This document shows positions 26,338 through 43,941 of a stretch of DNA of 64,000 nt, piece after piece. The stretch comes from Umezawaea beigongshangensis (GTDB taxonomy: Bacteria > Actinomycetota > Actinomycetes > Mycobacteriales > Pseudonocardiaceae), in assembly GCF_016464305.1 (NCBI RefSeq), contig NZ_JAEIOJ010000003.1, positions 310,001-374,000 of the forward strand. Reading direction: 5' to 3'. Each line of letters opens with the position of its first letter. Position 1 is the first letter of the stretch. The translations under genes and the position numbers were made by a program. Under the pieces are notes generated by a model. That model did not search any database. It saw nothing but the letters and a program-made list of their open reading frames with translations, and was not told the origin of the DNA.

Positions 26338-27651
26338 GTGATGGTCGAACCGGGTGGTGCGCCTTCGCAGAAGAGGTCTGCGTTGCCCCCGCTCCACGAG
26401 TCGTTCCTGCCGCGCGAGCACGGGCTCTACCGCCCGCGCCACGGCACCCGCCAGGGCACCGCGCGCGGGGCGGCGGTCGTGTTCTTCTTCGTGCCGCTGC
26501 TGCTGCTCGTCCTGGGTGTGCGTCCCCCGGCCTTCGAGAACCGGGCGCTCGCCGCCTTCCCGTCCGTCACCGACGGCTGGGGCTTCTTCACCGGTTTCGA
26601 CCGCTGGGCCACCGATCACCTGCCGCTGCGCGACAGGGCGGTGACCGCGGCCGACGGCATCAGCCGCGGCGTGTTCGGCGAAGCGCCGAAGCTCCAGCGG
26701 AAGACCGACGTCGGCCCGGTCCAGGCCCCGCCCGCTGCGACGGAGCCGGAGGAGGACCGCGACACCCCGCTGCCGTCGGACTACCCGGCCGTGATCGAGG
26801 GACGCAGGGGGTGGCTCTACTACGGGGTGGACGTCCAGGGCGCGTGCACGCCGGACCTGCCGCTGGACGAGGTGATGAGCAGGCTCCAGCGGCTCCGCTC
26901 GGTCGTGGAGGGATCGGGACGGCAGTTCGTCCTCGTGGTCGCCCCGAACAAGACGACGATGGTGCCGGAGAACCTGCCCACCCAGTACTACGGCTCCGAG
27001 TGCGCCGAACCCGTCCGCGACGAGTTCTGGAACCGGATCAGCGCCGAGGCCGGAGCCGTGGACCTGCGTCCCGCCCTGCGCCAGGCGGCGGCCGAGGCGG
27101 GAGCGCCCGTCTACTCCAAGTACGACACGCACTGGACGCACGAGGGCGGGCTGGCCATGAGCCGGGCGGTCGCCGAGCAGGTCAAGCCGGGCGTGACCGC
27201 GACCTGGAAGATCTCGAAGGCCGACGTCAGCGAGGTCCCGGCCGACCTGCCCAAGCTCCTGGGGCAGAGCAAGAGCGTCTCCCTCCAGAACTACGACCTG
27301 GCTCCCGACGGTGCCAGGGTGCGCAGCAAGCCGGTCCCCAGGCCCCTGTCCAACGCGAAGCGCTTCGTCCAGCTGCCCGGAACCGGGCTGGTGAGCACGG
27401 GGGTGGCGATGATCGGCGACTCCTTCACCTACTACGTGCTGAGCGACGTGGTCGCGGCCTTCTCCGACATCACCGTGCAGGACAGCGACAAGATCCCCGC
27501 CGATCCGCGCGAGGTCGGCGAGCTGCTGGCGCAGCAGGACGTCGTCGTGGTCGAGGCGGCCGAGCGCACCCTCGTGAACGGGACGCACCCGCTGCTCAAC
27601 ACCGAGATCGTCGACGCGCTCGCCGCCGAGCTGGCCGAGCGGCCGAGGTGA
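26338..27651 (+). CDS. AlgX/AlgJ-like SGNH O-acetylation protein
   Basis: A 437-residue protein with one N-terminal membrane helix (about 44-62) and an extracytoplasmic SGNH-type domain like the alginate O-acetylation proteins AlgX/AlgJ. The catalytic set fits: D263 and H265 in YSKYDTHWTHEG, and S362 in MIGDSFTYY. In alginate and related systems such proteins move acetyl groups, supplied by a membrane acyltransferase, onto a polysaccharide. Here the likely acyl suppliers are the acyltransferase-3-like proteins at 33433-35669. GTG 26338 and ATG 26341 are adjacent; the -10-like TAGGCT supports 26338. It leads a three-gene glycan operon. Confidence 0.8.
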   Translation: MMVEPGGAPSQKRSALPPLHESFLPREHGLYRPRHGTRQGTARGAAVVFFFVPLLLLVLGVRPPAFENRALAAFPSVTDGWGFFTGFDRWATDHLPLRDRAVTAADGISRGVFGEAPKLQRKTDVGPVQAPPAATEPEEDRDTPLPSDYPAVIEGRRGWLYYGVDVQGACTPDLPLDEVMSRLQRLRSVVEGSGRQFVLVVAPNKTTMVPENLPTQYYGSECAEPVRDEFWNRISAEAGAVDLRPALRQAAAEAGAPVYSKYDTHWTHEGGLAMSRAVAEQVKPGVTATWKISKADVSEVPADLPKLLGQSKSVSLQNYDLAPDGARVRSKPVPRPLSNAKRFVQLPGTGLVSTGVAMIGDSFTYYVLSDVVAAFSDITVQDSDKIPADPREVGELLAQQDVVVVEAAERTLVNGTHPLLNTEIVDALAAELAERPR

Positions 27652-27705: not shown

Positions 27706-29190
27706 GTGAGCAGCAGCGAGAACACTCGACCGACGGGCACGGTCGCGGTGTGGGGGACGTTCGACCTCGACAACTTCGGGGACCACCTCTTTCCGCGAGT
27801 GACCGAGCAGGAGATCACCCGACGCCTGGAGGGATGGCGGGTCAGGCCCTTCTCGCCGTACGGCGAGCAACACCCGTGCCGGATGGACGGGGGTTTCCTG
27901 GCCGAGGCGCTCGACGACTGGAGCCCCCTGCGCGTCGAGCAGCTCTCACGTCTCGCCGACCTCACGCTGATCGGCGGCGGGGAGATCATCCACTTCCAGG
28001 ACCACGTCCTGGCGGGGGCGTACCACGCCTCGGAGGAGAAGCTCGCCGCCAGGGCCCCCTCCCGCTACTTCGTGGACGGCCTGGGCGCGGACTTCGAGCG
28101 CGCGCACCCGGTGGTGTGGAACGCGGTCGGCATCCCGTTCGCCCCGGAACCCGCACAGGCCGGGATGATCAGGGACGCCGTCGAGCGCCGCGAGTACACC
28201 TCCGTGCGCGACGAGCTGTCCCTGGAGCGCCTGCGGGCCTGCGGTGTCGAGAAGGACGTCGCGGTCGTCCCCGACATCGGGTTCCTGCTGGACCGCCTGG
28301 TCGCGCCCGAGGTGCTCGACGAGCGCCTGCGCTACCTCAAGTTCATGGAGTGGTACCCCAGCGACCGCCCGGCGCTGATCGTGCACGCCAACCGCTCGGC
28401 CGTGCACCGCGCCGCCGAGGTGGCGAAGACGATCGAGTGGGCGCTGGACGAGGCCGTGTCCGCCGACGTCGTGCTGCTGGAGACCGGCCCCGTGCACGGT
28501 GACGGTCTCTTCGCGGACGCGCTCGCGGCACGCCTGACGGGCCGCCGGATCTACCGGTTGCCCGCCGGGCTGCCGCCCGAGGACGTGCTCGCGGCCGTCC
28601 ACGGTTCCGCCGGTGTGATCGCCATGAGCTTCCACGCCAACATCGCGGCCTTCGTCTTCGGCAAGCCGTGGGTCGTGCTCGACCTGAGCGACCAGAGCAA
28701 GCTCCGGGCGCTCGCCGAGACGATGGGAGCGCCGGACCAGCGCGCGGTGGACGCCGACACGCTCGCCAACGCCGTGCGCGCGGCGTTCGGGCGCACACCG
28801 GACCGGGAGCGGCTGCGCGCCCTCCAGGCGCGGGTCGACGCCCACTTCGACCGCGTGGCCGACATGGCCCTGCGCGCCCGCGAGGAACGCGGTGGCGACA
28901 CCGCGGCGCGGATCGCCGACCTCGACCGGCAGAACGGGCTGCTGCGGCAGGCGTACCAGCAGTTGCGCCGCCGCCAGTTCGCCGAGCGGGTCGCCCTGGT
29001 GACCGAGCTGGAGAAGACGCGGTCCGAGCTGGAGCAGATGCGGGCCCGCTGGAACTCCGCGGTGAGCGAGTTGCAGGACCGCGCGGCGCACGACAGCCGT
29101 GAGCTGGAAGCGCTGCGCAACACCAAGCTCGTCCGCTGGAGCGAGCCGGCCCGCACCGTCTACGGCCGGATCAGGAGGTCCGGATCGTGA
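27706..29190 (+). CDS. Polysaccharide pyruvyl transferase family protein with coiled-coil tail
   Basis: A 494-residue protein. The N-terminal part (about 10-385) is a GT-B-like polysaccharide pyruvyl transferase: WGTFDLDNFGDHLF, LIGGGEIIH (about 87-95), YTSVRDELSLERL and SFHANIAAFVFGKPWV. Relatives add pyruvate ketals from phosphoenolpyruvate to cell-wall or secreted glycans. The last 110 residues are a heptad-rich coiled coil (AERVALVTELEKTRSELEQM), probably for oligomerisation or tethering. GTG 27706 follows TAGAGT. The TGA overlaps the next gene (GTGA). Confidence 0.82.
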   Translation: MSSSENTRPTGTVAVWGTFDLDNFGDHLFPRVTEQEITRRLEGWRVRPFSPYGEQHPCRMDGGFLAEALDDWSPLRVEQLSRLADLTLIGGGEIIHFQDHVLAGAYHASEEKLAARAPSRYFVDGLGADFERAHPVVWNAVGIPFAPEPAQAGMIRDAVERREYTSVRDELSLERLRACGVEKDVAVVPDIGFLLDRLVAPEVLDERLRYLKFMEWYPSDRPALIVHANRSAVHRAAEVAKTIEWALDEAVSADVVLLETGPVHGDGLFADALAARLTGRRIYRLPAGLPPEDVLAAVHGSAGVIAMSFHANIAAFVFGKPWVVLDLSDQSKLRALAETMGAPDQRAVDADTLANAVRAAFGRTPDRERLRALQARVDAHFDRVADMALRAREERGGDTAARIADLDRQNGLLRQAYQQLRRRQFAERVALVTELEKTRSELEQMRARWNSAVSELQDRAAHDSRELEALRNTKLVRWSEPARTVYGRIRRSGS

Positions 29191-31145
29191 TCGACCCGGC
29201 CTACGACACCCCGGTCCCGCCACTGGTGTCGATCGTGCTCGTGTCCTACGGCGGCCGAGCCATGCTGAACCGCTGCCTCTACCTCGTGGAGCAGCACACG
29301 AGCGTGCCCCACGAGGTGATCGTCGTCGACAGCGGTTCGCTCGACGGCACCGACGAGTGGGTCGGCAAGCACCTGCGCGGAGCCCGCGGCCACGTGATCG
29401 GTCGCAACGTGGGCTTCGGCGCGGGGTCGAACCGAGGCGTGCTGGACGCGCGAGCGCCGTACGTCTGCTTCCTGAACGCCGACGTCGAGGTCTCGCCGGG
29501 CTGGCTCCAGCCGCTGGTCGACGTGCTCGACCGGCACCCGGAGACCGGCGCGGTGGCTCCGGTCCTGCGGGAGTCCTCCGGGGAGATCCAGGAGTTCGGC
29601 TCGGTCGTCGGCGCCGACGGGTGGTGCCGCGCCTGGGGCGACGGCGCACCCGTCGGCGACGAGGACGCCCTCTTCCCGCACGAGGTCGACTACGCCTCCG
29701 CGGCCTGCCTGCTCGTGCGGCGACGGGCCTTCAACGAGGTCGGCGGGTTCTCCACCGACTACGGCGTGGCCTACTTCGAGGACGTGGACCTCGCGTTCGG
29801 CCTGCGGGCCGCCGGGTGGAGCACGCGCGTCGAACCCCGCAGCACGGTCGTGCACCAGCGGCACGGCTCCTCCGACGGCAAGACCGCCAAGGAGCTGATG
29901 GAGCTCAACCACAGCACGTTCCTGCGGCGGTGGGGGTCCACTCTGGACGGCCGGCCGACGCTGCCGCCGAAGGGGGAGCGCCCGCACCTGTTCTACTTCG
30001 CGCGCGACGTGCTCGCCGACGAGCGCGTCCTCGTGGTCGACGACCGCGTGCCCAACGCCGACCGGGGCAGCGGCGACCCGCGGACGATGCGGTTGCTCGA
30101 AGCCCTCGCCGCGCCGGGACGCCGCGTCACGTTCCTCGCCCGCGACCGGCTGCGCGCCGAGGCGTACGCGCCCGGACTGCTGGAGCTCGGCGTGGAGGTG
30201 GTGTGGCAGCACGCCAACCCGTTCCAGGTCATGCGGGAACGAGCGGGCCTCTACGACGTCGCGTTCGTGATGCGGCCGCACAACTTCGAGTGGATCGCCG
30301 AGGCGCTGGCCGAGAGCCAGCCGCAGGCGGTGAAGGTGTACGACTCCGAGTCCCTGTTCCACCGCCGCGCGGAGCAGTACGTCGGTGTCGCGCGGAGCGA
30401 GTCCGCGCGCCGCGCCGCGCGCCGCGAGGCCGACGAGCTGCGGCGGCTGGAGGAGGCCGCGTTCCGCTGGGCCGACGTCGGTGTCTGCGTCACCGAGATC
30501 GAGGCGGACTGGGCGCGGTCGATCGCGCCGGACACCTCGATCCGCGTGGTGGGCTACCCCACGGACGTCTCACCCGCGGTGCCCGGTCTGGAGGACCGCA
30601 GCGGCATCTCGTTCTTCGGCGGTTTCATGGCGGGGCCGGGAAGCCCCAACGAGGTCGCGGTGCTGGAACTCGTCGGCGAGGTGCTGCCCGAGCTGTCGCG
30701 CACGCACCCCGACGTCCAGCTGTCGATCATCGGAGCCGACCCGACCCCGGACGTGCTGGCTCTGGAGTCCGACCGCGTCCAGGTGATCGGTCGCGTGCCC
30801 AGCCCGGCCCTGTGGCTGGGGCGTTCCCGGTTGCAGGTCGTCCCCATGCACCTCGGGGCGGGCATCAAGCTGAAGTTCCTCGACTCGATGGCGGCCGGGC
30901 TGCCGTTCGTGACGACGACCGTCGGCGCGGAGGGGCTGCGGCTCGGGGCGTTCGCCAAGCACCTCGTGGCCGACTCGCCCGCCGAGATGGCGGAGCTGGC
31001 CGCCGCGCTGCTGTCCGACGACGCCCTGTGGCTGGAGGCCCACCACGAGGTGCTGCGCATCGCCCGCGAGTGGTTCTCCTGGCGGGCGTTCCGCGGCGAG
31101 CTGGACGAGGTGCTCGTGGACTGCGGAGTGGCGCCGAGGTTCTGA
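29187..31145 (+). CDS. Bifunctional glycosyltransferase, GT2 fused to GT4
   Basis: A 652-residue fusion. Residues about 10-245 are a GT2 enzyme of rhamnosyltransferase type (SIVLVSYGGRAMLNRCL, NVGFGAGSNRGV, FLNADVEVSPGW with the metal-binding DxD-like NAD, YFEDVDLAFGLRAAGW). Residues about 275-645 are a GT-B glycosyltransferase (LVVDDRVPNADRGSGDPRTM, then VPMHLGAGIKLKFLDSMAAG, the nucleotide-sugar site). The fusion should add two sugars in sequence to one acceptor glycan. GTG 29187 overlaps the pyruvyl transferase stop. The operon ends at a perfect palindrome 4 bp after the stop. Confidence 0.88.
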   Translation: MIDPAYDTPVPPLVSIVLVSYGGRAMLNRCLYLVEQHTSVPHEVIVVDSGSLDGTDEWVGKHLRGARGHVIGRNVGFGAGSNRGVLDARAPYVCFLNADVEVSPGWLQPLVDVLDRHPETGAVAPVLRESSGEIQEFGSVVGADGWCRAWGDGAPVGDEDALFPHEVDYASAACLLVRRRAFNEVGGFSTDYGVAYFEDVDLAFGLRAAGWSTRVEPRSTVVHQRHGSSDGKTAKELMELNHSTFLRRWGSTLDGRPTLPPKGERPHLFYFARDVLADERVLVVDDRVPNADRGSGDPRTMRLLEALAAPGRRVTFLARDRLRAEAYAPGLLELGVEVVWQHANPFQVMRERAGLYDVAFVMRPHNFEWIAEALAESQPQAVKVYDSESLFHRRAEQYVGVARSESARRAARREADELRRLEEAAFRWADVGVCVTEIEADWARSIAPDTSIRVVGYPTDVSPAVPGLEDRSGISFFGGFMAGPGSPNEVAVLELVGEVLPELSRTHPDVQLSIIGADPTPDVLALESDRVQVIGRVPSPALWLGRSRLQVVPMHLGAGIKLKFLDSMAAGLPFVTTTVGAEGLRLGAFAKHLVADSPAEMAELAAALLSDDALWLEAHHEVLRIAREWFSWRAFRGELDEVLVDCGVAPRF

Positions 31146-31202: not shown

Positions 31203-32369
31203 TCAGCCGGCCGGGAACTCGTCCACCTGGCGCTGGAGCAGCGTCTTGTACGCCTTGGAGGCCACGTCCTCCGACGGCGCGTACGACTCGACCCGCACCA
31301 CGAACCCGTCTGTGACGTAGTGGGCCCGGTACGTGGCGGTCTTGTTCACGTCGGTGAGCGGCAGGTGCCGTCCCAGGACGCCGGTCGGGCTGTCGTTCAG
31401 CGCTTCGAAGCTGGCCGCCTGGTACAGCTCGTCCACCTGCGTCAGCACCGCGGCGGCGTCGTTCGCCTTGAACGCCCAGATGCCCTGGACGAGACCCGTG
31501 TTCTCGTCCCTGCTGACGACGAAGCGGACCTCGGTCACCCCGGCCTGCTGGAGGATCTGCGCCTCCTCGACCGTGGGGACCTTCGCGTCGAGCGCCGCCT
31601 GGATGGGCAGGCTCTTGAACTGCACGGTCTTGCTCGGCAGTTCGACGAACGGACCGTCCGGCACCTTCTTGGGCACGGTGGTCGTGGTCGTCGGCGCGGG
31701 CTGCGCGGTGTTCGTGTCGCCCGTACCGCCGCTGCCGTTCCTGCCCCAGATGAAGTAGGCGCCGACGCCCGCGCCGACGAGCAGCACGAGGACCAGCACG
31801 ATCGCGATGATCTTCCCCTTGCCGCCGCCGGTGCCCTCGTCGAAGACCTCCGGCCCCTGCTTGACGCCCCAGGCGCTCGCGGCGTCGAGCGAGGGGAAGT
31901 CGGTGTTGCCCCAGGGCGGAGCGGAGGAGTTGCCCCAGTTCGGCGCGTTGGGCGGGCCGGGCACCTGCTGCGCCGGGAAACCGCCGCTCTGTGCCGCTCC
32001 CTGGTTGCCGATCCCCGGAACGACCTGGGTGCGGTCGGAGTCCTGCGGGCCGTTGGTGCGCACGACCTGCGTGCGTTCCGCGTCCTGCGGGCCGTTGGTG
32101 CGCACGACCTGCGTGCGTTCCGCGTTGTCCTGCGGCTGGCCGCCGCTCTGCGCAGCGCCCTGACCGCCGCCCGGCGTCGCGTCCGGAGGACCCGCCTGCC
32201 AGGAGAAGGGGGGCGGGAACGGCGATCGTGATTGCGGCGCGGGTGGTTCTGCGGCCGACGGAGCCGCGGACGCGAGCAGCTCGTCACGACGGCGCCGGTA
32301 CTCGTCCGCGGAGATACTCCCGCCAGCCAGCGCGCTGTCGAGCTCTTGCAAGTCCTCTTGCCAGGACAT
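31203..32369 (-). CDS. Membrane-anchored paralogue 1 with SHOCT-like N terminus and ERTQVV repeats
   Basis: A 388-residue protein of an unrecognised family. Order: an amphipathic SHOCT-like helical pair (1-35, SWQEDLQELDSALAGGSISA), a Pro/Gly/Gln linker with ERTQVV at 84-89 and 98-103 and DRTQVV at 112-117, QGPEVF (171-176), one membrane helix (187-208), then an extracellular domain (about 236-388) ending VRVESYAPSEDVASKAYK. Topology should be inside-N, outside-C. A 42-bp exact DNA duplication encodes two of the motifs. ATG 32369 has GGGAGGGG upstream. The extracellular domain matches those of 32484-33497 and 35802-36425. Confidence 0.75.
   Translation of the reverse strand: MSWQEDLQELDSALAGGSISADEYRRRRDELLASAAPSAAEPPAPQSRSPFPPPFSWQAGPPDATPGGGQGAAQSGGQPQDNAERTQVVRTNGPQDAERTQVVRTNGPQDSDRTQVVPGIGNQGAAQSGGFPAQQVPGPPNAPNWGNSSAPPWGNTDFPSLDAASAWGVKQGPEVFDEGTGGGKGKIIAIVLVLVLLVGAGVGAYFIWGRNGSGGTGDTNTAQPAPTTTTTVPKKVPDGPFVELPSKTVQFKSLPIQAALDAKVPTVEEAQILQQAGVTEVRFVVSRDENTGLVQGIWAFKANDAAAVLTQVDELYQAASFEALNDSPTGVLGRHLPLTDVNKTATYRAHYVTDGFVVRVESYAPSEDVASKAYKTLLQRQVDEFPAG
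32041..32124. repeat. Exact 42-bp direct repeat inside a coding region
   Basis: Bases 32041-32082 and 32083-32124 are identical. On the minus strand they encode two copies of the 14-residue unit DAERTQVVRTNGPQ in the linker of the 31203-32369 protein. Perfect identity suggests recent duplication. Confidence 0.9.
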
Positions 32370-32483
32370 CTGCGCCCCTCCCGGTGAAACTCAGGCAGAG
32401 GCCATTCTCACCGATGGCCTCCGCCACTCGTGTTCCGCCTCCCGGATCGCAACCTCCTTGTGAGAACCGGGGGCGGCACACCA

Positions 32484-33497
32484 CTACTTCGCCGGCACCT
32501 TCGCGATCACCTGGTCGAGGAACGCGGTGAACGCCGCCTGCGCCTCCTGCTCCCCGAACGCCTTCGGAGCCGCCGTCCCCACCCTGATCGTCGTGCTGCC
32601 CATGACGTAGACCGCGCGGAACAGGAACTGGTCCTGGTGCTGCCCCTTCGTGGTGGACACGCTCTCCGGGACGTCCTGCGCCTGGAAGGGGGTGAGGCCG
32701 ATGGTGGTGTGCGTCTGGATGAAGGCGTTGCCGAGCTCGATCGCGGCGTCCTCGTCCTTCGCGCCGAACACCGCGACCGCGTAGCCGAGCCCGCGGTCCG
32801 ACCCCGACTTCTGCACGACGTCCGTCACGCCCGCCGTCTGCGCGGCCTTGAAGTCGGCCTCTCCCAGAACCTTGCGGTTCTTGGCGTCGTCGACGCCGTA
32901 CTCGCCGGTGTTCGCGTTGGGCTTGCCGGGCGGGTCGGGCAGGTCGTCGAGCCCCGGCGTCCGCGCCTGCTCGGCCGTCGTGGACGTCTGCTGGGCGGCC
33001 GGGGTGGTATTGCCGTCCCTGAAGCCGAACCACCACGTGGAACCGCCGACGAGCGCCAGCACCAGCACGGCGACGAGCACCCACAGCCCGGTCCGCTTCT
33101 TCCCCGTCGCCTCGAAGACCTCGGGACCCTGCATGCCCTGGTTCCAGGGCGTGCCCTGCTGGAAGCCCTGCTGTTGCTGCTGGGCGGCCCAGGGCGGTGG
33201 GGTGGCCTGCTGCTGCTGGCCGCCCGCCGGTGGCCAGTTGTTCGGGGGCGGGGGGAAGGCCGGCGGCCGGATGAACGCGGTGGCCCCAGCGTCTCCCGAC
33301 GTGACCACCTGGGTCCGCTCCGCGTCGCCGGACGGCTCCTGGTTCCCGGGAGCCTGCGCCTGCCAGCGCAGGCCCTGAGGCGCCCCGCCGGTCGCGCTCG
33401 CCAGCACCTCGTCACGGCGTGCCCGGTGCTGATCAGGCGATATCTGCCCCTTGGCGAGCGCTTCGTCCAGCGTCCGCACCTCGTCCTGCCAGCCCAT
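32484..33497 (-). CDS. Membrane-anchored paralogue 2 with SHOCT-like N terminus
   Basis: A 337-residue relative of the 31203-32369 protein with the same order: SHOCT-like helices (1-35, GWQDEVRTLDEALAKGQIS), a Gln/Pro-rich linker with one ERTQVV (60-65), QGPEVF (123-128), one membrane helix (about 137-157) and an extracellular domain ending FRAVYVMGSTTIRVGTAAP. ATG 33497 is chosen because GGAGG lies 9 nt upstream; an in-frame start at 33533 would extend it into the acyltransferase tail. It overlaps the acyltransferase gene by 65 bp and is probably co-transcribed with it. Function unknown. Confidence 0.75.
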   Translation of the reverse strand: MGWQDEVRTLDEALAKGQISPDQHRARRDEVLASATGGAPQGLRWQAQAPGNQEPSGDAERTQVVTSGDAGATAFIRPPAFPPPPNNWPPAGGQQQQATPPPWAAQQQQQGFQQGTPWNQGMQGPEVFEATGKKRTGLWVLVAVLVLALVGGSTWWFGFRDGNTTPAAQQTSTTAEQARTPGLDDLPDPPGKPNANTGEYGVDDAKNRKVLGEADFKAAQTAGVTDVVQKSGSDRGLGYAVAVFGAKDEDAAIELGNAFIQTHTTIGLTPFQAQDVPESVSTTKGQHQDQFLFRAVYVMGSTTIRVGTAAPKAFGEQEAQAAFTAFLDQVIAKVPAK

Positions 33498-34629
33498 CGC
33501 GGTTTCCTCCAGGGGTCGGTTCATCGGTGTCAACAGGGCGTTCGAGGTCCGCGCGCCGTCGGCGTCGGCGGCGCAGCAGGCGTTCGAGCGGGCGTTCGAC
33601 CGCGCGGTAGAACAACTCCGTCGCGACCGCGATCACCAGCACCGAGATCAGCAGTGCCCAGGACGCGCCGATCGCGTCGACGAGCAGTTCGAGCACCGCG
33701 AAGCCGATCGGCATGTGCACCAGGTAGACGCTGTAGGTGCGCCTGGCCAGTGCCCTGGTCCAGCGCGACCGCGCCACCGGGCCGTTGGCAGACATGAACA
33801 GCAGCACCAGCAGCACGATCATCAGCAGCACGTTGTGGTAGCCGCCGCCGGGGGTGAAGATGCCCCGGCTCACCAGGTCTGCGCGCACGAACAGCAGCAG
33901 GTGGACCGCTCCGAGCGCCACGGCGGCACCGAGCCGGACGCGTCCCGCCTGCGCGAGGGAGATCAGCTGTCCGATGAAGACGATCGGGAGGAACGCGACG
34001 ACCGTCCGGACCGGCCCGACCGCGCCCTGCGGCACCAGCGACGTCGTCACCGAGATCAGTGCGGCGGCGACGGCGGACGGAAGCCACGGCCAGCGGCGCA
34101 GCAACGGGATCGTGAGGGCGGTGAAGGCGTAGAAGGCGAGCTGGACGAGCAGGGTCCACACCACGGGGAGCAGCACGGCGCCACCGACGAAGTACGGCCC
34201 GAACCACGCGTTGTTCAGCAGGTGGAGCGCGGTGGCGGCCGACTCCGGCGCCATCTCGCGCACCAGGCCCGTGCTCACGACCGCGAAGGCGAGGATCAGC
34301 GCGGCCCACAGCGGGGGGAGGACGCGGACCGCCCGGCGGCGCAGGAACTCGCCGGGGCTCTCCCGCAACGACACCCTCGTCACCACGAGCCCCGACACCA
34401 GCAGGAACGAGGCCACGCCGATGAAGGCGAGGTCGGGCCGCAGGTGCAGCGGCGACGTCACGGCGTTCACGAGGTCGCCGATCGGCCAGGACCGGTTCTT
34501 GCCGCTGATCCAGCTCGCGAGGTGGGTGTAGACGATGGCGGCGGACGCGACGACGCGCAGCACGTCCAGCCCGTGCAGGTACTCGGAGCGGCCACCGCCC
34601 GCGGTCGGCGGGGTCGTCGGCGTGGTCAC
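33433..34629 (-). CDS. Acyltransferase-3 family membrane protein (OafA-like)
   Basis: A 398-residue protein with about ten hydrophobic helices. YLHGLDVLRVVASAAIVYTH, FLLVSGLVVTR and LRRRAVRVLPPLWAALI are the opening motifs of acyltransferase-3 (OafA/NodX) proteins, which transfer acyl groups from the cytoplasm to glycans. The basic C-terminal tail (RRRRRRADL) stays cytoplasmic. GTG 34629 overlaps the stop of the upstream acyltransferase-like gene (GTGA). With 26338-27651 it could form a glycan O-acylation pathway; that link is inference from proximity. Confidence 0.85.
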   Translation of the reverse strand: MTTPTTPPTAGGGRSEYLHGLDVLRVVASAAIVYTHLASWISGKNRSWPIGDLVNAVTSPLHLRPDLAFIGVASFLLVSGLVVTRVSLRESPGEFLRRRAVRVLPPLWAALILAFAVVSTGLVREMAPESAATALHLLNNAWFGPYFVGGAVLLPVVWTLLVQLAFYAFTALTIPLLRRWPWLPSAVAAALISVTTSLVPQGAVGPVRTVVAFLPIVFIGQLISLAQAGRVRLGAAVALGAVHLLLFVRADLVSRGIFTPGGGYHNVLLMIVLLVLLFMSANGPVARSRWTRALARRTYSVYLVHMPIGFAVLELLVDAIGASWALLISVLVIAVATELFYRAVERPLERLLRRRRRRRADLERPVDTDEPTPGGNRDGLAGRGADAGRSARQGADIA

Positions 34630-35669
34630 GCTTGCCCCCGGACCGGCGCGGTGCGCAGCGCGGTGCTCGCCCGGTGACCGCACTCGGACGCCAGCAGCGT
34701 GGCGGCCGACGCGATCACCAGGGCGAGGAGAGGGGGGAGCGCGGACAGCGCGCTCGCCAGCGCCCAGCCGATCGTCCCGGTGAAGACGAGGATCCAGCGG
34801 CTCCGGCTCGCGAACCAGTCGCCCACCGAGCGGCGGGTGCTCCCGAGGTCCGCTCGCACCAGGGCGGTGAAGAACAGCGCCGCGTAGCACGCGGTCAGGC
34901 CGTACCACCAGCCTTCGAGGTCCGGGAACGCCCGCTCGGTCCATGCGACGAGGCCCCACGCCGCGAGCCCGGCGAGCACCAGCGGCCACAACGGCGCGGC
35001 GCCGCCCGTGCCGCTGGCGACGAGCTGACCGATCACGGCCAGCGGCCAGAAGCACAGCAGGAGCGCGAGGGGCGACGAGGGATCGCAGAACGCCGCGAGA
35101 ACGCCGACGACCGCCAGTTGTGCCAGGGGCGTCCACCAGACCGCTCGGCCGCCGGACCGGGAGATCACGGCGCCGGTCAGGGTCGTGATCAGCTCGACGC
35201 AGACGACCCAGCCGAGCGCCAGCACCGGCGCCGCGCCGGGAGCCAGGTAGTTGATCAGGCCGACGTCGCCGAACGCCCCCGCCGGGCTCAGCTCGCCGGT
35301 GTCCCGGCCCGCCAGCACGTCACCACCGGCGAGCAGCAGAGCCGCGGCGACCGCCGCGCCCACGACGAGCGGGAGGTAGACCCGGACCAGCCGGTCGCGG
35401 ACGGAGCGGCCCGCACCGCTCGCGCGGACCGAGGTGAAGCCGCTCGCGAGCAGCAGCAGCATGATGCCGAGCGGGCCGCCGTCCTCGCCGATGCCCAGCG
35501 GCCGGGAGACCCACTCGCGCGTCTCGTCGACGAGGGCGAGGCGGACTCCCCGCTGATCGCTCCACAGCCCCCACAGGTAGCTGTAGAGGAGGAGGGCTGC
35601 CCCCGCGGCCCGCACGACGCGCGCGGCCCGCACCTGCGCGTGGCGCGCCCCGGCGGAAGCGTGCGACAT
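34626..35669 (-). CDS. Acyltransferase-3-like membrane protein, divergent
   Basis: A 347-residue protein with about ten hydrophobic segments. It keeps parts of the acyltransferase-3 pattern (LLYSYLWGLWSDQRG, LLLLASGFTSVR, VRDRLVRVYLPLVVGA) but the first-helix histidine motif is not evident, so it may be non-catalytic or belong to a divergent branch. ATG 35669 has GAGGAAAG about 6 nt upstream. Its stop overlaps the intact acyltransferase start, so the two are translated together. Confidence 0.7.
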   Translation of the reverse strand: MSHASAGARHAQVRAARVVRAAGAALLLYSYLWGLWSDQRGVRLALVDETREWVSRPLGIGEDGGPLGIMLLLLASGFTSVRASGAGRSVRDRLVRVYLPLVVGAAVAAALLLAGGDVLAGRDTGELSPAGAFGDVGLINYLAPGAAPVLALGWVVCVELITTLTGAVISRSGGRAVWWTPLAQLAVVGVLAAFCDPSSPLALLLCFWPLAVIGQLVASGTGGAAPLWPLVLAGLAAWGLVAWTERAFPDLEGWWYGLTACYAALFFTALVRADLGSTRRSVGDWFASRSRWILVFTGTIGWALASALSALPPLLALVIASAATLLASECGHRASTALRTAPVRGQA

Positions 35670-35801
35670 CGTCTTTCCTCGACCTTCCGGACCGCGGCTC
35701 GGAGGTCCTGTGCCGCGTCAGGGCCGACCCCCGAACGGGCGACCCTGAAAGCGTGTGGAAGGAGGGTAAAACACGACGGTCCGCACTTATGCGAGCTTTG
35801 C

Positions 35802-36425
35802 TCAGAGAACCTGCGGCAGCCGCTCCAGCTGAGCGGCGAGCGCCCCGGCGAACGTCCGCACGACGTGCTCCGAGTCGGTGCCGTAGGCCTCGACGCGCAC
35901 GACGCCGGACGACGACACGTAGTGCCCGCGGCAGGTGACGACACCGTCCGCACCCGGCGGGGGTTCCAGCAGCAACGCCGACGTACCCGGTGGTGTGCTG
36001 CTCAACCGCTGGTAGTCCGAGTCCTCGTAGAACCGCTCGATCCCGGCGACGAGCTCGACGGGGTCGTGGTTCTGCCGGAGTTCGAACAACCAGCTCCCGA
36101 CGGTCACCCCGTCGTCCGCGGCCACCTTGGCGGTGACGTTCCTCACGTGCGGTTCGAGGAGCTCGATCTCGGACCCGGTCAGCACGCGGGCGTTCTCGAC
36201 CACCTGGAACTTCTGGGACAGGTCGAGCACGACCTCTCCCGGCGGGAGGACCACCGGGTCCGCCTGCGAGACGATCGTCGGGCGGCGCGGATCGCCGGTG
36301 ACGACGACGCCCCGCGGAGTGCTGCTGTCCCCGCCGTCGCCGCCCCACGCCCACGCGCCCCAGGCCACCGCGGTCAGCAGCGCGACCGTCAGCGCGGCAC
36401 CGGTCCTGCCGGGCAGTGGCGACAT
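35802..36425 (-). CDS. Membrane-anchored paralogue 3 (short form)
   Basis: A 207-residue protein with an N-terminal membrane helix (about 8-28, [20 protein letters not shown]) and an extracellular domain. The domain matches the two larger proteins downstream: [20 protein letters not shown], then [17 protein letters not shown], then [20 protein letters not shown]. It lacks the SHOCT-like and ERTQVV regions. ATG 36425 is chosen because AGGAG lies about 6 nt upstream, over an in-frame start at 36458. It precedes the acyltransferase pair by 132 bp and may head the same operon. Confidence 0.7.
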
Positions 36426-36493: not shown

Positions 36494-37147
<654 letters not shown>

Positions 37148-37188: not shown

Positions 37189-37511
37189 GGTGTGGACGGG
37201 AAGGTCGCAGCGGTCAGCCGCCGGACTCCGGCTGCTCGATCGCGGTGCTCGCCGCGTCGGGGGGCTCCGCGTGCGCCGCGCGGAACTCGACGCGGGTCAC
37301 CGTCCTCGTCGCCCCTCCTCGGCCGCCCGCGGAAACCGTGCGAGCGGGTGCGTCGGCACGGGAAGCGCGCGCGGGCGGGGGTCACCCGGACGAAGGTCCT
37401 CTGATCGGCGTGGGCTACCTTACCTGCGATTACTCGATCACAGGTCGTGTCCAGAGCGGCGCATCGCGAGATCGCGCGCCGGGCGGCGGCCCACCGCTGG
37501 GGAGAAGACAC
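37189..37511. other. Intergenic stretch between msrA and the SdrD_B-type gene
   Basis: No full gene is evident. It contains a weak minus-strand small frame (37214-37300, listed separately), an A/T-richer tract at about 37415-37450 that probably holds the promoter of the surface-protein gene, and the ribosome site GGGGAG at 37499-37504. Confidence 0.4.
37214..37300 (-). CDS. Possible very small protein (28 aa)
   Basis: A short minus-strand frame, [20 protein letters not shown] then IEQPESGG and TGA, with AGGAGGGG 11 nt before its GTG. Length and composition give no function; it may be fortuitous. Confidence 0.2.
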
Positions 37512-39221
37512 TTGTCCACCACCGTCACCGGGGTGGCTAGCAGAGCTGTTGCGCTCGCTGCTGCCCTGACGCTGGGAAGCTGCGCGCTCGCGACCTCCGC
37601 CGTCGCGCAGCCGACCGGTGACCCGAGCAGCACGCCGACCACCACCACCCCGACCGCCACCTCGACGTCGGCGCAGGTCCCGGCGCCGGTGGCCCGGCCG
37701 GACCTGCGCGTCTCCGCCACGGCGGCCCCCGGCGGGCACCTCGTCGGGGAGCGGGTCGCGGTGACCGTCACCATCGTCAACGCGGGCCCCGTCGCCGCCA
37801 CCGGCGTCAAGGCCACCACCTACCGCCGCTCCGGCTCACCGTTCTTCGTGGACTCGCAGTCGTGGGGCGACCTGGACGTCTTCGGCCCCGGCACGACCGT
37901 CCCGGCGGGGGCCACCACCGTGGTCGAGGTCGTCGGCTCCGTGCCCGGCTGGGACGGCGGCGACCCGCAGTTCACCGTGGACGTCCGCGCCGACGACGAC
38001 GTCGAGCGCGCCGACAACCAGGCGCAGGTCACGTTCGGCCTCGTGCCGTCGACCACCACCGGCACCGTGTCCGGCGCGGTCTTCGGCGACCGCGACGGCG
38101 ACGGCGCGTTCGGCGACGGCGAGGGGCTCGGCGGCGTGACCGTCGTGCTGTCCGGCAACGGCCGGAGCTTCGAGGGCACGACCGCCGCCGACGGGAGCTT
38201 CAGCGTCACCGGGGTGCCGGCGCGGGTCTACTCCGTCTCGCACCGCAACGTCCCGGACGGCTGGGTCGTCCCGCACTCGGCCGAGCAGGTCGGTGTCGAG
38301 AGCGGCACGTCGGAGCTGCTGGTCCGCGCGGTGCGCCCGCTGTCCGACGTGCTGAGCGCCGACGTGGAGTTCACGGCCGACTCGTACCGGGCCGGTGCCG
38401 AGGCGCGCGTCCGCGTCACGCTCACCAACAGCGGCCCGGTGGCGCTGCCGGGCGTGCACGTCGGGTGCGACCGCAGCGGCGACGGGCCGCACGTGCTCCT
38501 CGCCGACGTCGAGGACGTCGGCGACCTGCACTGGTCGCGACCCGGTGTGACCGTCGGCGCCGGGGTGACCTGGACGTTCGAGGCGCGCGGGACGGTGCCG
38601 GACGAGGCGGACCGCTACGGCTCGGTCTTCGCGTCCTGCGACTTCGGCAGCGCGAACTTCGACCAGAGCGGCTTCCCGAAGGCGTTCGACACGGCGAGGG
38701 TGCCCGGCGTCTCCGCGAACACCGACGGCCTGATCCACCACGACGCCGACGGCGACGGGGCGTTCGGCGAGGGCGAGGGCGTCGCGGACACCACCGTCGG
38801 CCTGGTCGACCCCGACAGCGGCCTGGTCGTCGCGGAGTCCACCACCGGGTCGGACGGTCGCGTCGAGTTCACCGCCGTGCCAGCGGGCATGTACCACCTG
38901 AGGCTGTCCGGGCCGTGGCGCTGGGAGGGCGGGACGGCGCCGTTCATCTACGTCGGCACCTGTCCGCTGTACTGCGGCGGCGGCTGGGAGTGGCGCGTCG
39001 TGCCCGGCGCGGCGGAGCGCGCGGTGGACCCCGTCGCGGCGGTGCCGGCGACGGGACTGCCGCGCGCGGCGCCGACGGTCCGCAGCAGCGGTGGCGGCGG
39101 TACGACGTCGGACGACCTGGCGTTCACCGGCGTCGACGTGGCGGGGCTGTTCTTCGCCGGTCTGCTGGCGCTGGTCGCCGGGATCGGCGCGGTCGTGATC
39201 GGTCGCCGCCGCAGCGCGTGA
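37512..39221 (+). CDS. SdrD_B-type surface protein with LAxTG sorting signal
   Basis: A 569-residue secreted, wall-anchored protein. Signal peptide to about residue 32 (AVA|Q), a Thr/Pro linker, CARDB-like beta domains (about 60-160 and 285-385), and two SdrD_B/prealbumin-like units with Ca-binding style DRDGDGAFGDGE (about 195-206) and DADGDGAFGEGE (about 412-423). The C terminus has LAFTG (536-540), a hydrophobic helix and RRR, the class E sortase signal. TTG 37512 is chosen for GGGGAG 7 nt upstream and because the signal peptide starts there. No sortase is in the window. Confidence 0.8.
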   Translation: MSTTVTGVASRAVALAAALTLGSCALATSAVAQPTGDPSSTPTTTTPTATSTSAQVPAPVARPDLRVSATAAPGGHLVGERVAVTVTIVNAGPVAATGVKATTYRRSGSPFFVDSQSWGDLDVFGPGTTVPAGATTVVEVVGSVPGWDGGDPQFTVDVRADDDVERADNQAQVTFGLVPSTTTGTVSGAVFGDRDGDGAFGDGEGLGGVTVVLSGNGRSFEGTTAADGSFSVTGVPARVYSVSHRNVPDGWVVPHSAEQVGVESGTSELLVRAVRPLSDVLSADVEFTADSYRAGAEARVRVTLTNSGPVALPGVHVGCDRSGDGPHVLLADVEDVGDLHWSRPGVTVGAGVTWTFEARGTVPDEADRYGSVFASCDFGSANFDQSGFPKAFDTARVPGVSANTDGLIHHDADGDGAFGEGEGVADTTVGLVDPDSGLVVAESTTGSDGRVEFTAVPAGMYHLRLSGPWRWEGGTAPFIYVGTCPLYCGGGWEWRVVPGAAERAVDPVAAVPATGLPRAAPTVRSSGGGGTTSDDLAFTGVDVAGLFFAGLLALVAGIGAVVIGRRRSA

Positions 39222-41016: not shown

Positions 41017-42513
41017 ATGGTCGCTGACGCTGTAGCGCCGAGGCGCGCACCGGACGGTCCCCCCGACGACCTCGAACTGCTCGCCAGGGTCAGGGCGGGC
41101 GACGACACGGCGTTCGGCGAGCTGTTCGCCCGGCACTCCGAGGTGGTCCGCCGCTTCGCGCTGCGGCACGTCGGCGCGGCCGCGGAGGCCGACGACCTGA
41201 CCGCGGAGACCTTCTTCCGCGTCCTGCAAGCGGTCCGCCGCGGCTCCGGGCCGCGCGACCACTTCCGCACCTACCTGCTCACGGTCACCCGCCGCGTCGC
41301 CTGGGAGTGGAGCGCGCGCCGCAGGGACGTCCCGGTGGACGACGAGGAGCTGTTCCGCCGCGTCGAGCCGTTCGCCGACACCGCGGGCCGCCGCGCCGAG
41401 CACACCCTGATCACCCGCGCGTTCGCGAGCCTGCCCGAGCGCTGGCGCACCGTGCTGTGGCGGGTCGAGGTGGAGGGCGAGCGCCCGGCGACGGTCGCGC
41501 CGCACTTCGGGCTGAGTCCCAACGCGATGGCGGCGCTGGCCCGCCGCGCCCGCGAGGGGCTGCGGGCCGCGTACCTCCAGGCGCACCTGGCCGAGGGACG
41601 CGGCGGTCGCTCCTGCCGCTCGGTGCTGACCAAGCTCGGCACCTACACCGCCGGTGGCGCGCGGGGGTCGGAGGAGCAGCGCATCCGGCAGCACCTGGAG
41701 ACGTGCTCGTCGTGCCGCTCGCTGCACGACGAGCTGGTGGAGGTGTGCTCCGCGCTGCGCGCCCACGCGCCGCTGATCGCGCTGCCGGCCGCCGCGCTGG
41801 CCGGTGGGCACGCCTCGGCGGTGCTGGGCGAGCTGTCCCTGCTGGCGGGACGGGCGAAGCTGGCCGTCGTGGCCGCGTCCACCGCCGCGCTCGGCCTGTT
41901 CGGGGTGGCTGCGCTGCTGCCGGACGGCGGCCCGGCCGCCGTGCTGCTGCAACCCGATCAGCGGGCGAGCGGCGTGCTGGAGCTGTCGACGCCGAACTCA
42001 TCGGCGGGGAGGAGCACCACGGCGCCCGGTGACGCCGACGCTCCCGCCGAGCCGGGGACCGGGGCGCCGGTCGCCGTCGTGCCGGGACACCGGGACGGCG
42101 CGGGCCGGACGACGCCGCCCGCCGGGGTGACGCGGCGGGACGGGGAACCGGTGCGGACGGGAGAGCTGGTCGCCCCCGTCGTGGTGTCCGCGCCGTCCTC
42201 GGTCGCGCGGGACGCGGGCGTGCGGGACGCGGGCGTGCGGGACGCGGTCGTGCGGGACGCGGTCGCGCGGGACACGACGTCGCCGGTCGTGCCGTCGGAG
42301 GAGCCCGGCGGGGTCGGCGTCCGGAGCGAGCCGGCGTCCAGCGCGTCGGCGTCCAGCACGTCGGCGTCCGGTTCCCCGAGCACCTCGGAGGCCGCCCCGA
42401 CCTCGGAGCGCCAGGGGGTGAGGTCGTCGCCCTCGATCACCACCACCAGCGTCCGGCTCCGCCCGACGCCGCTGTCGCACCCGGCGGACGCGGACGCTCA
42501 GCGCGCTCCGTAG
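41017..42513 (+). CDS. ECF sigma factor fused to zinc-finger anti-sigma and membrane anchor
   Basis: A 498-residue fusion. Residues about 15-185 are an ECF sigma factor: region 2 (DDLTAETFFRVLQAV) and region 4 (LPERWRTVLWRVEVEGERPA, SPNAMAALARRAREGL). A zinc-binding anti-sigma segment follows, with C200 and H227, C231 and C234 (QHLETCSSC). One membrane helix is at about 281-300, then a long disordered Ser/Thr/Pro tail that should lie outside the cell and includes five-residue RDAGV/RDAVV repeats. ATG 41017 with GGAGG 11 nt upstream is preferred over GTG 41005, which overlaps that site. Release by proteolysis is plausible, as for other membrane-held sigma factors. Confidence 0.8.
   Translation: MVADAVAPRRAPDGPPDDLELLARVRAGDDTAFGELFARHSEVVRRFALRHVGAAAEADDLTAETFFRVLQAVRRGSGPRDHFRTYLLTVTRRVAWEWSARRRDVPVDDEELFRRVEPFADTAGRRAEHTLITRAFASLPERWRTVLWRVEVEGERPATVAPHFGLSPNAMAALARRAREGLRAAYLQAHLAEGRGGRSCRSVLTKLGTYTAGGARGSEEQRIRQHLETCSSCRSLHDELVEVCSALRAHAPLIALPAAALAGGHASAVLGELSLLAGRAKLAVVAASTAALGLFGVAALLPDGGPAAVLLQPDQRASGVLELSTPNSSAGRSTTAPGDADAPAEPGTGAPVAVVPGHRDGAGRTTPPAGVTRRDGEPVRTGELVAPVVVSAPSSVARDAGVRDAGVRDAVVRDAVARDTTSPVVPSEEPGGVGVRSEPASSASASSTSASGSPSTSEAAPTSERQGVRSSPSITTTSVRLRPTPLSHPADADAQRAP
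42208..42273. repeat. 15-bp tandem repeat in the sigma-factor tail
   Basis: Four copies plus a partial fifth of CGGGACGCGGGCGTG (42208-42222, 42223-42237, 42238-42252, 42253-42267), encoding RDAGV-type pentads in the extracellular tail. Confidence 0.85.
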
Positions 42514-42612: not shown

Positions 42613-43050
42613 ATGACGCGGCTGGTGCGCGGAGCGGACGGCCGGATGTGGACGGTCCGCAGCCGGGTGGAGTGGCGCAACCCGAGTGCCACCGACGACT
42701 TCGAGCACGACGTCAGCGGCGGTCACACGCCCGGCGTCGTGATGTTCGGAATTCTGATCGTCATGGGTGTCCTGCTGGTCGCGTGGACCCCCGAGGAGGT
42801 CGTCGTCCCGGCGTGGCTGATCTTCGCGCTGATCCTGCTGTTCCTGTTCTTCCCCGTCCGGTGGTCGCTGCGCAGGCCGTGGACGCTGGTCGCGGAGTCC
42901 AAGGCGACGGCCGACGACCAGCCGCCGGAGCTGTGGGTCGGGCAGGTGCGCGGTGTGCTGGCGGTGCGCCAGGAGGCGTCGAACGTCGTCCGCAACATCG
43001 AGATGTACTCGCTGCCGAACGTGGACGGCCCGCTCCAGCCGGTCGACTGA
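42613..43050 (+). CDS. Conserved two-helix membrane protein
   Basis: A 145-residue protein with two closely spaced membrane helices (about 44-60 and 67-82, VVMFGILIVMGVLLVAW and AWLIFALILLFLFFPV), a polar N terminus and a C-terminal domain ending SNVVRNIEMYSLPNVDGPL. No named family recognised. ATG 42613 has AGGAG 8 nt upstream. It precedes the Fpg/Nei gene by 27 bp and may share its transcript. Confidence 0.7.
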   Translation: MTRLVRGADGRMWTVRSRVEWRNPSATDDFEHDVSGGHTPGVVMFGILIVMGVLLVAWTPEEVVVPAWLIFALILLFLFFPVRWSLRRPWTLVAESKATADDQPPELWVGQVRGVLAVRQEASNVVRNIEMYSLPNVDGPLQPVD

Positions 43051-43077: not shown

Positions 43078-43941
43078 GTGCCGGAACTCCCCGAGGTCGA
43101 GGCTCTCGCCCACCACCTGCGCGAACACGCCGCGGGCCGGGTGGTGCACCGCGTCGACGTGGTGTCGCTCCAGGTCTTGAAGACGGTGCTGCCGCCGTGG
43201 ACCGAGCTGCACGGCCGGACGGTCACCGGCGCCGGTCGGCACGGCAAGCACCTGGACCTCGACTGCGACGGGCTGCACCTCGTCGTGCACCTGGCGCGTG
43301 CCGGGTGGTTGCGCTGGTCGGACACGCTGGCCGCGCCGCCGCCCAAGCAGGGCAGGGGTCCGCTGGCGCTGCGCGCGCACCTCGGGCCGCCCGGCGCGGG
43401 ACCGGGCTTCGACCTGACCGAGGCGGGCACGAAGAAGGGGCTGGCCGCGTGGATCGTGCGCGACCCGGCCGAGGTGCCGGGCGTCGCCCGGCTCGGCCCC
43501 GACGCGCTGTCGATCGGCCGCGCGCGGCTCGGCGAGCTGTTCGCCGGCCGGTCCGACCGGCTGAAGACGGCGCTGACCGACCAGACGCTGATCGCGGGGC
43601 TCGGCAACGCCTACTCCGACGAGGTCCTGCACGTGGCGCGGCTGTCGCCGTACGCCACGGCCGGGCGGCTGCCGGCCGACGCGCTGGACCGGCTGCACGA
43701 GGCGCTGACCGGCGTCCTCACCGACGCGGTGAGCCGTTCGGTGGGCCAGGACGCGGCCCGGCTCAAGGGGGAGAAGCGGTCCGGCCTGCGGGTGCACGCC
43801 CGGACCGGCCTGCCGTGCCCGGTGTGCGGGGACACCGTCCGCGAGGTGTCGTTCGCGGACCGGGCGTTCCAGTACTGCCCGACCTGCCAGACCGGTGGCG
43901 AGCCGCTGGCGGACCGCAGGACGTCCCGCTTCCTGAGGTGA
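43078..43941 (+). CDS. Fpg/Nei-family DNA glycosylase
   Basis: A 287-residue bifunctional DNA glycosylase/AP lyase. PELPEVE (2-8) places the catalytic proline right after the start codon, with E3; the H2TH region includes LIAGLGNAYSDEVL, and a C-terminal zinc finger has CPVC and YCPTCQ. It removes oxidised bases. Whether it is Fpg- or Nei-type is not decided. The GTG at 43078 is required by the N-terminal proline. Confidence 0.92.
   Translation: MPELPEVEALAHHLREHAAGRVVHRVDVVSLQVLKTVLPPWTELHGRTVTGAGRHGKHLDLDCDGLHLVVHLARAGWLRWSDTLAAPPPKQGRGPLALRAHLGPPGAGPGFDLTEAGTKKGLAAWIVRDPAEVPGVARLGPDALSIGRARLGELFAGRSDRLKTALTDQTLIAGLGNAYSDEVLHVARLSPYATAGRLPADALDRLHEALTGVLTDAVSRSVGQDAARLKGEKRSGLRVHARTGLPCPVCGDTVREVSFADRAFQYCPTCQTGGEPLADRRTSRFLR

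Follow-up and report, generated by a model that had tools for sequence, protein, structure and literature searches.

Single-pass membrane proteins as candidate enzyme-specific partners in variable surface-glycan loci of Pseudonocardiaceae

Introduction

In acyltransferase-3 (AT3) proteins the R-X10-H motif has been described as absolutely conserved (excerpt of PMC9833829), and we follow the definitions of this motif and of RXXR given in excerpts of PMC9833829 and PMC9558356. The MmpL3 complex includes TtfA as a required component, a precedent for accessory envelope proteins working with a membrane machine (excerpt of PMC6593404). For the SHOCT domain, a role in oligomerisation was not supported in a published test, and binding to something else was suggested (excerpt of PMC3581485). 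Here we analyze a stretch of 64,000 nucleotides (nt) of Umezawaea beigongshangensis (NZ_JAEIOJ010000003.1, positions 310,001-374,000; the whole of it is called the window), in which three membrane-anchored proteins with an extracellular domain, P1, P2 and P3, are encoded next to two AT3-like proteins, P4 and P5. The bacterial family of this species, Pseudonocardiaceae, includes soil actinomycetes and is known for its antibiotic producers. A single search of the open-licence literature found no paper on surface-glycan genes in Pseudonocardiaceae.

A first-pass annotation, made from the letters of the window, had proposed that these genes form an undescribed envelope system in which three paralogues surround two acyltransferases. 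We confirm the observation, whose reach was underestimated, and our results support its interpretation. P1, P2 and P3 belong to a protein family found here only in Pseudonocardiaceae, and we put at roughly 60% the probability that its members are single-pass, enzyme-specific membrane partners in variable envelope- or surface-glycan loci. As to novelty, searches of open-licence papers (SHOCT/Actinobacteria/membrane, DUF7373, gene context) found no described system with this architecture or gene context, but the fold of the ectodomain, which is PknH-sensor/PsbP-like, is already known.

Results

The five genes run on the minus strand in the order P3, P5, P4, P2, P1, from 36425 down to 31203, as the same open reading frames that the first-pass annotation had listed (Table 1). 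P5 and P4 overlap by 4 nt, and the 3' end of P4 overlaps the start of P2 by 65 nt in different frames (33433-33497). The acyltransferases are not quite enclosed by the paralogues, as had been described: P3 lies on one side of them, and both P1 and P2 lie on the other.

Sequence comparison identifies P1, P2 and P3 as paralogues. By BLASTP, P1 matches P2 at E 8e-15, most strongly in the N-terminal part, and P3 at E 8e-11 across the ectodomain; P2 and P3 gave no significant BLASTP match to each other, and alignment of profiles built separately from each of three clades joins all pairs (P2-P3 E 2.9e-9, P2-P1 1.5e-18, P3-P1 8.2e-32). Iterated searches with each ectodomain, run on the window and 20 loci from relatives, converged on largely one protein set, of which 42 proteins were used onward. 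The extracellular domain that the annotation had seen in all three proteins is thus borne out by profile alignment of the three and by a common predicted fold of P1 and P2, while the motif given for it fits P2 less well, which has RAVY for RxHY, P-E at the supposed Pro-Gly turn and no FY/LY. The other motifs were found as described in two of the proteins, with three [DE]RTQVV repeats in P1, one in P2, and QGPEVF before the membrane helix in both. What did not survive is the idea of duplication within the locus. Because each of P1, P2 and P3 lies closer on the tree to proteins from other genera than to its paralogues in the window (the fork joining P3 to L079 has support 82), a recent local duplication is ruled out, and the three are old lineages.

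The neighbors of the family genes were analyzed in 80 named loci, taken from 185 confirmed stretches, using home-made gene calls and single-linkage BLASTP clusters (E <= 1e-12). These loci hold 145 family genes, up to four per locus, and locus content varies between species. Of the genes that directly follow them, 127 are co-directional and 18 lie on the opposite strand, and every one of the 127 belongs to a few types: GT_A (50), another family gene (41), AT3 (17), GT_B (16) and a GT39-like protein (3). Representatives of GT_A are GT4-type by Pfam, 914-1262 amino acids (aa) long, one with an FkbM methyltransferase domain, and the GT_B representative combines a methyltransferase with GT2; the GT39-like membrane protein had no Pfam match, and its name is an impression. 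At least one partner or related glycan cluster lies within the fetched flanks of 77 of the 80 loci (the exceptions are L100, L119 and L128). An AT3 cluster lies within those flanks in 33 of the 80; the six PF01757 matches in the 6.5 Mb of the window's genome would give about 0.02 expected per 20 kb.

The junctions themselves are distinctive. An overlap of exactly 8 nt occurs at 35 of 50 GT_A and 7 of 17 AT3 junctions (42/67), against 16 of 732 other co-directional junctions, with the ATG lying within the last codons ahead of the stop, as in GATGGCTGA. A single GT_A query found 16 full-length matches in 14 of 50 chosen genomes, and the coordinates place 15 of the 16 beside a family match, the family gene being the downstream one in two cases. 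The same query had no match in 15 genomes of genus g61, nor in about ten family-bearing genomes (including G008 and G015), and GT_A is therefore one of several partners. Together, these data strongly support a genetic partnering of family genes with glycan enzymes. The proposed association with acyltransferases is real, since 18 members, window P3 included, lie directly upstream of AT3, but it needs to be widened: across the family, direct partners are more often glycosyltransferases than acyltransferases.

Which enzyme follows depends on the architecture of the member. Among 148 members, the window's included, 128 carry a cytoplasmic SHOCT-like part and 20 do not. The 128 precede GT_A (50), GT_B (16), a GT39-like gene (3), another family gene (40) or an opposite-strand gene (19), and never AT3, whereas all 18 intact SHOCT-less members precede AT3. 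The remaining two (L122, L123) are truncated at contig edges. These two, together with three rows of unnamed loci whose starts are unsure, do not enter the intact counts or the SHOCT label on the tree. Sixteen of the 18 are followed by an adjacent AT3 pair, 15 of them in the usual order; L086 has AT3 without the pseudo-AT3 described below, in L134 the pseudo-AT3 is followed by a gene on the other strand, and in L079 the pair is swapped, all three being counted.

On the ectodomain tree, the SHOCT-less form appears in two places. Forcing the 21 SHOCT-less rows into a single clade, a group defined by architecture after sight of a first tree, changed the log-likelihood by -45 and was rejected by the approximately unbiased (AU) test (p 0.0125). 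A label for the partner (GT_A, GT_B or AT3; 91 of 157 tree rows) needs 4 changes on this tree against a minimum of 30 in 200 shuffles, and the GT_A versus GT_B label (70 rows) needs 2 against a shuffle minimum of 13. The ectodomain type therefore travels with the enzyme type.

The family is widespread within one bacterial family. Profile A1 matches 304 of 390 Pseudonocardiaceae genomes at E <= 1e-4 (279 of 338 good ones, and 44 of 46 genera), which rules out chance or a frame artefact, and none of 245 genomes of the same class outside that family at this threshold. None of the 18 listed genomes of genus g61 match, nor do 66 further genomes of the bacterial family. When P1 alone was used as query at E <= 0.01, 34 of 36 genomes in the family and 2 of 24 others matched, the latter at E 0.001 and 0.007; two of the 34 matches inside the family are equally weak (E 0.004 and 0.006). 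The window's genome has three profile matches, all in the window locus. Of the 80 named loci, 79 are titled with genera that we take to belong to Pseudonocardiaceae. One locus, L105 (JOAA01000035.1), carries the title Rhodococcus rhodnii. Both of its family members cluster with the Kibdelosporangium ones (L107, L118), and at the GT_A junction it has the same sequence as L107; the record is probably mislabelled or contaminated.

AlphaFold2 models of the ectodomains, built on 42 aligned sequences for P1 and 15 for P2, reached a predicted local distance difference test (pLDDT) score of 94.4 and 92.8, with the main elements in the same order. In VIA-align, the best match is the extracellular domain of PknH (4esq), with Z 11.8 and 3.3 Å over 142 residues for P1 and Z 11.2 and 3.2 Å over 145 residues for P2. 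TiME, which we take to be TtfA, follows at Z 11.0 for P1 and ties with 4esq at 11.2 for P2, and next come LpqN (9.7 for P1), PsbP (9.2 and 8.8 for P1 and P2) and MTC28 (8.4 and 8.3), amid unrelated proteins of like score. Foldseek gave no match at E <= 0.001, with 4esq second (E 2.3e-3, probability 1.00); the lipocalin 3sao, ranked first (1.3e-3), was dropped because its TM-scores are about 0.2. P3 probably has the fold of P1, judging from its profile match to that protein.

By sequence, the ectodomains are hard to place. A search of solved structures gave a single match, at E 0.78, and nothing useful. DUF7373 (PF24088/PF24092) matched 7 of the 42 ectodomains at E <= 1, one of ten passed its cut-off on a rescan (27.7 vs 27 bits), and P1, P2 and P3 had no Pfam match to PF24088 at E <= 10. 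The PknH sensor family is absent from the 24 Pfam families listed for the 42 ectodomains at E <= 1, and scans of the P1, P2 and P3 chains found no kinase or output domain.

For the cytoplasmic part, we use the term SHOCT-like only, because scores against Pfam SHOCT (PF09851) fall below the cut-off of 27 bits (18.6 for P1, 14.7 for P2); the likeness claimed by the first-pass annotation is present at that level. In 15 homologues, SHOCT matched 4 at E <= 0.01 and GvpG matched 8. Matches to GvpG (E 0.00087), FliL, CcmI and TasA were set aside as sub-cut-off and limited to the hairpin or the membrane region. In a positive-inside comparison, the N-side is the more positive one in 102 of 128 SHOCT members and the less positive in 12.

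Between hairpin and membrane lies a linker rich in one motif. We counted 219 instances of the pattern [DE]xT[QE][VIAFLM][VI] in 118 linkers (17,719 aa), where 200 shuffles gave 0.2 on average and non-family genes have 42 in 524,049 aa, and at least one TQVV-like motif is present in 89 of the 118; the count covers 118 of the 148 members, 30 without a recognized N-terminus in the called start being left out. The consensus, (D/E)-(R/A)-T-Q-V-V, has V/I at +3, the position at which FHA domains favor V/I (pT-x-x-V/I). The repeats resemble phospho-threonine/FHA sites, a likeness of motif from which phosphorylation and FHA binding may be supposed. Agreement with the phospho-threonine pattern reported from a PknA depletion, in which acidic residues stand at -1 and from -3 to -6, proline at -1 and +2, Leu/Val at +3 and a basic residue at +4 (excerpt of PMC7164672), is partial: Val at +3 fits, and the acidic residue stands at -2 instead. 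In Saccharopolyspora erythraea, phosphorylation of GarA at an ETTS motif has been detected (excerpt of PMC12321487); therefore threonine kinases act in the bacterial family of the named loci, and they may act on TQVV linkers as well. Searches of open-licence literature found nothing linking TQVV to FHA.

The two acyltransferase-3-like proteins proved to be of different kinds. P4 scores 85.5 bits against the PF01757 cut-off of 31, and P4-type proteins keep R-X10-H (helix 1), RXXR and RTYxxYLxH in all 14 aligned sequences, the window's among them. On its 402-aa chain, where the AT3 match covers 23-339, no C-terminal SGNH domain was found; the window has a separate gene for an AlgX-like SGNH protein. 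P5, on the other hand, has no Pfam match at E <= 10 and is homologous to AT3 by profile (hhalign E 2.6e-37 against the P4 clade); it scores 382 bits with profile A6 and 53 bits with A7. Two of 15 P5-type proteins reach PF01757 at E <= 0.1, window P5 not being one of them. Among the P5-type sequences from the window and the named loci, R-X10-H is broken in each of the 17 that can be read (15 without the His, 2 without the Arg; the 18th is unreadable there), and likewise in 15 of 15 aligned sequences, and the second histidine motif, RTYxxYLxH, is absent from 18 of 18. By comparison, the set holds 48 other AT3 proteins, of which 46 have R-X10-H and 45 the second motif. From these motifs, P5 is predicted to be catalytically inactive, a pseudo-AT3. 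The P5 profile matched none of 147 other genomes of the class at E <= 1e-8. In Actinophytocola algeriensis (L085, 3251-8732), the whole module of SHOCT-less member, pseudo-AT3 and AT3 occurs twice in tandem, which suggests that these genes move as one unit.

Table 1. Positions in the window of the five genes, of segments of P1 and P2, and of nearby genes
Feature	Position	Strand	Evidence or remark
P1	31203..32369	-	388 aa; SHOCT-like hairpin, TQVV linker, QGPEVF, one membrane helix, ectodomain
P1 N-terminal SHOCT-like segment, about residues 1-36	32262..32369	-	Pfam SHOCT E 0.0015, under cut-off; in 15/15 aligned homologues
P1 three [DE]RTQVV repeats, about residues 84-117	32019..32120	-	
P1 QGPEVF at membrane	31842..31859	-	Q171, G172, P173, E174, F176 invariant (15 sequences)
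P1 ectodomain, predicted PknH-sensor/PsbP-like fold	31206..31715	-	AlphaFold2 pLDDT 94.4; 4esq Z 11.8
P2	32484..33497	-	337 aa; architecture as P1, single ERTQVV
P2 ectodomain, predicted fold as P1	32487..33014	-	AlphaFold2 pLDDT 92.8; 7cu8 and 4esq Z 11.2
P4, intact acyltransferase-3	33433..34629	-	PF01757 4.7e-24; R-X10-H, RXXR, RTYxxYLxH
P5, conserved AT3 homologue with broken R-X10-H (pseudo-AT3)	34626..35669	-	hhalign 2.6e-37 to P4 clade; His to Tyr, no RTYxxYLxH
P3, membrane helix and ectodomain, no cytoplasmic SHOCT-like part	35802..36425	-	BLASTP to P1, clade profiles
AlgX-like SGNH protein of same glycan locus	26383..27651	+	PF16822 3.5e-18; cluster in 41/80 loci; longer ORF from 26260
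Polysaccharide pyruvyl transferase-like	27706..29190	+	PF04230 3.1e-21
Two-domain glycosyltransferase, GT2 + GT4	29187..31145	+	PF00535 3.2e-20, PF13692 3.1e-16; convergent with P1
MsrA-like	36494..37147	+	divergent from P3

Around the five genes, the pyruvyl transferase-like and AlgX-like SGNH genes lie upstream of the GT2 + GT4 gene on the plus strand. The MsrA-like gene is presumably msrA; its cluster is the divergent neighbor directly upstream of 21 of the 145 family genes, a placement that suggests that the two share a promoter region or that there is a connection with envelope oxidative stress. Further along, the genes at 41017-42513, 42613-43050 and 43078-43941 belong to clusters retained near family genes in 35, 40 and 31 of the 80 loci. 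To the eye, the first of them resembles a sigma factor to which a long Ser/Thr-rich tail is attached, and 37245-39221 seems to encode a repeat protein with LAFTG before a C-terminal membrane segment, possibly a sortase-like anchor.

Discussion

Of all that we infer about how the family works, enzyme-specific partnership is the strongest element. In the mechanism that we propose, the cytoplasmic SHOCT-like hairpin would dock a soluble glycosyltransferase at the membrane; we assign docking to this part because members lack it precisely when their partner is a membrane enzyme, and members with a membrane acyltransferase as partner would have lost it. The PknH-sensor/PsbP-like ectodomain could bind the growing or exported glycan, or a lipid carrier, and present it to the enzyme or to the next step, and a PknB-type kinase might phosphorylate threonines in DxTQVV-like motifs for an FHA protein to recognize, tuning assembly. 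In the window, P3, the pseudo-AT3 P5 and the intact AT3 P4 would form one extracytoplasmic O-acylation module, and P1 and P2 would serve glycosyltransferase steps.

Several points weigh against this reading. Physical interaction and docking, a ligand and phosphorylation are things we infer, and the published test of SHOCT (excerpt of PMC3581485) fits docking to other proteins yet gives it no precedent. One full-length GT_A (G018:C8) has no family match nearby, and the restriction of full-length GT_A to 14 of the 50 genomes means that many family-bearing genomes use other enzymes. P1 itself is among the 19 SHOCT members that precede an opposite-strand gene, so gene order assigns no enzyme to it. 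The three GT39-like neighbors, which look like membrane proteins, follow SHOCT members and fit the docking idea poorly, and 29 of the 118 linkers have no TQVV-like motif. Gene starts come from the home-made caller, and the 80 loci were found through N-terminal patterns, by which loci with SHOCT-less members only are undersampled; this bias touches the frequencies more than the rule.

A different account would make the proteins sensors, in which a PknH-like ectodomain detects an envelope signal and a phosphorylatable linker relays it to a kinase or FHA protein, regulating glycan enzymes from outside the assembly. No other structure matches P1 as well as the PknH extracellular domain, which also shares first place for P2, the TQVV repeats would suit a relay, and envelope pathways are regulated by PknA/PknB in Mycobacterium tuberculosis (excerpt of PMC7164672). 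Yet the chains have no kinase or output domain that we could find, the SHOCT-less members lack the linker and still have an ectodomain and a partner enzyme, and one regulator per locus would be enough where up to four copies occur. We regard the sensor account as unlikely.

It is less probable still that these are extracytoplasmic carriers which take a glycan or glycolipid outward from the membrane, in the manner of LpqN and TtfA beside MmpL3. Among solved structures, TiME and LpqN rank near the top for P1, and TtfA is needed in the MmpL3 complex (excerpt of PMC6593404); against this, the fold is common to proteins of many functions, and there were no transporters among the neighbor types scanned with Pfam, many clusters having been left untyped. 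That the locus is a conflict or phage-exclusion cassette by which the surface is varied is very improbable, for even though GT_A matches PF20706 GT4-conflict (9.4e-17) and locus content differs among species, the family is conserved across 304 of 390 genomes and PADLOC gave no convincing match to a defence system, with none for P1, P3, P4, P5 or GT_A, a weak PD-T4-6 match in P2 (E 0.0008) over residues 86-198, which are linker and membrane region, a mad2 match in GT_B (2.1e-18) over the methyltransferase domain only, and a weak LeoA match, also in GT_B.

Enzyme-specific partnership remains our preferred reading, and it can be extended, far more tentatively, to a new design for glycan assembly. 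Each glycosyltransferase or O-acylation module would have its own co-translated single-pass ectodomain subunit, with a cytoplasmic clamp that is kept or lost according to the location of the enzyme and repeated TQVV tags that would serve kinase/FHA addressing, and the O-acylation enzyme would consist of an intact AT3, a dead AT3 and a PsbP-like ectodomain. If this doubtful design were true, the three-subunit enzyme would answer the question of how an AT3 without an SGNH domain completes transfer outside the cell. The locus supplies concrete candidates for this in one gene run, namely a conserved broken-motif AT3 homologue and a small ectodomain protein. It also offers a testable, family-wide rule on the way in which soluble glycosyltransferases may be fixed at the membrane, and a possible route by which kinases act on the synthesis of envelope glycans.

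Set beside known systems, the family combines familiar parts in its own way. P1 and P2 share the ectodomain fold of PknH (4esq) at 11% identity; their chains have no kinase domain and carry, on the cytoplasmic side, a SHOCT-like hairpin and TQVV repeats, and the gene neighbor is a glycan enzyme. TiME (7cu8/7cu9), LpqN (6e5d), MTC28 (4pws), PsbP and Mog1, several of them mycobacterial, have the overall fold of P1 (Z 7.6-11.0) but no useful sequence match to the family, and differ in architecture and gene context. The ectodomains of some relatives match DUF7373, over part of the model, in contrast to the window proteins, and the open-licence papers searched held no literature under that name. 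Finally, P4 shares PF01757, R-X10-H and RXXR with the AT3 proteins OafB, OatA and Oac, and differs from them in having no fused SGNH domain and in being paired with a broken-motif homologue, P5, and an ectodomain protein of the family described here.

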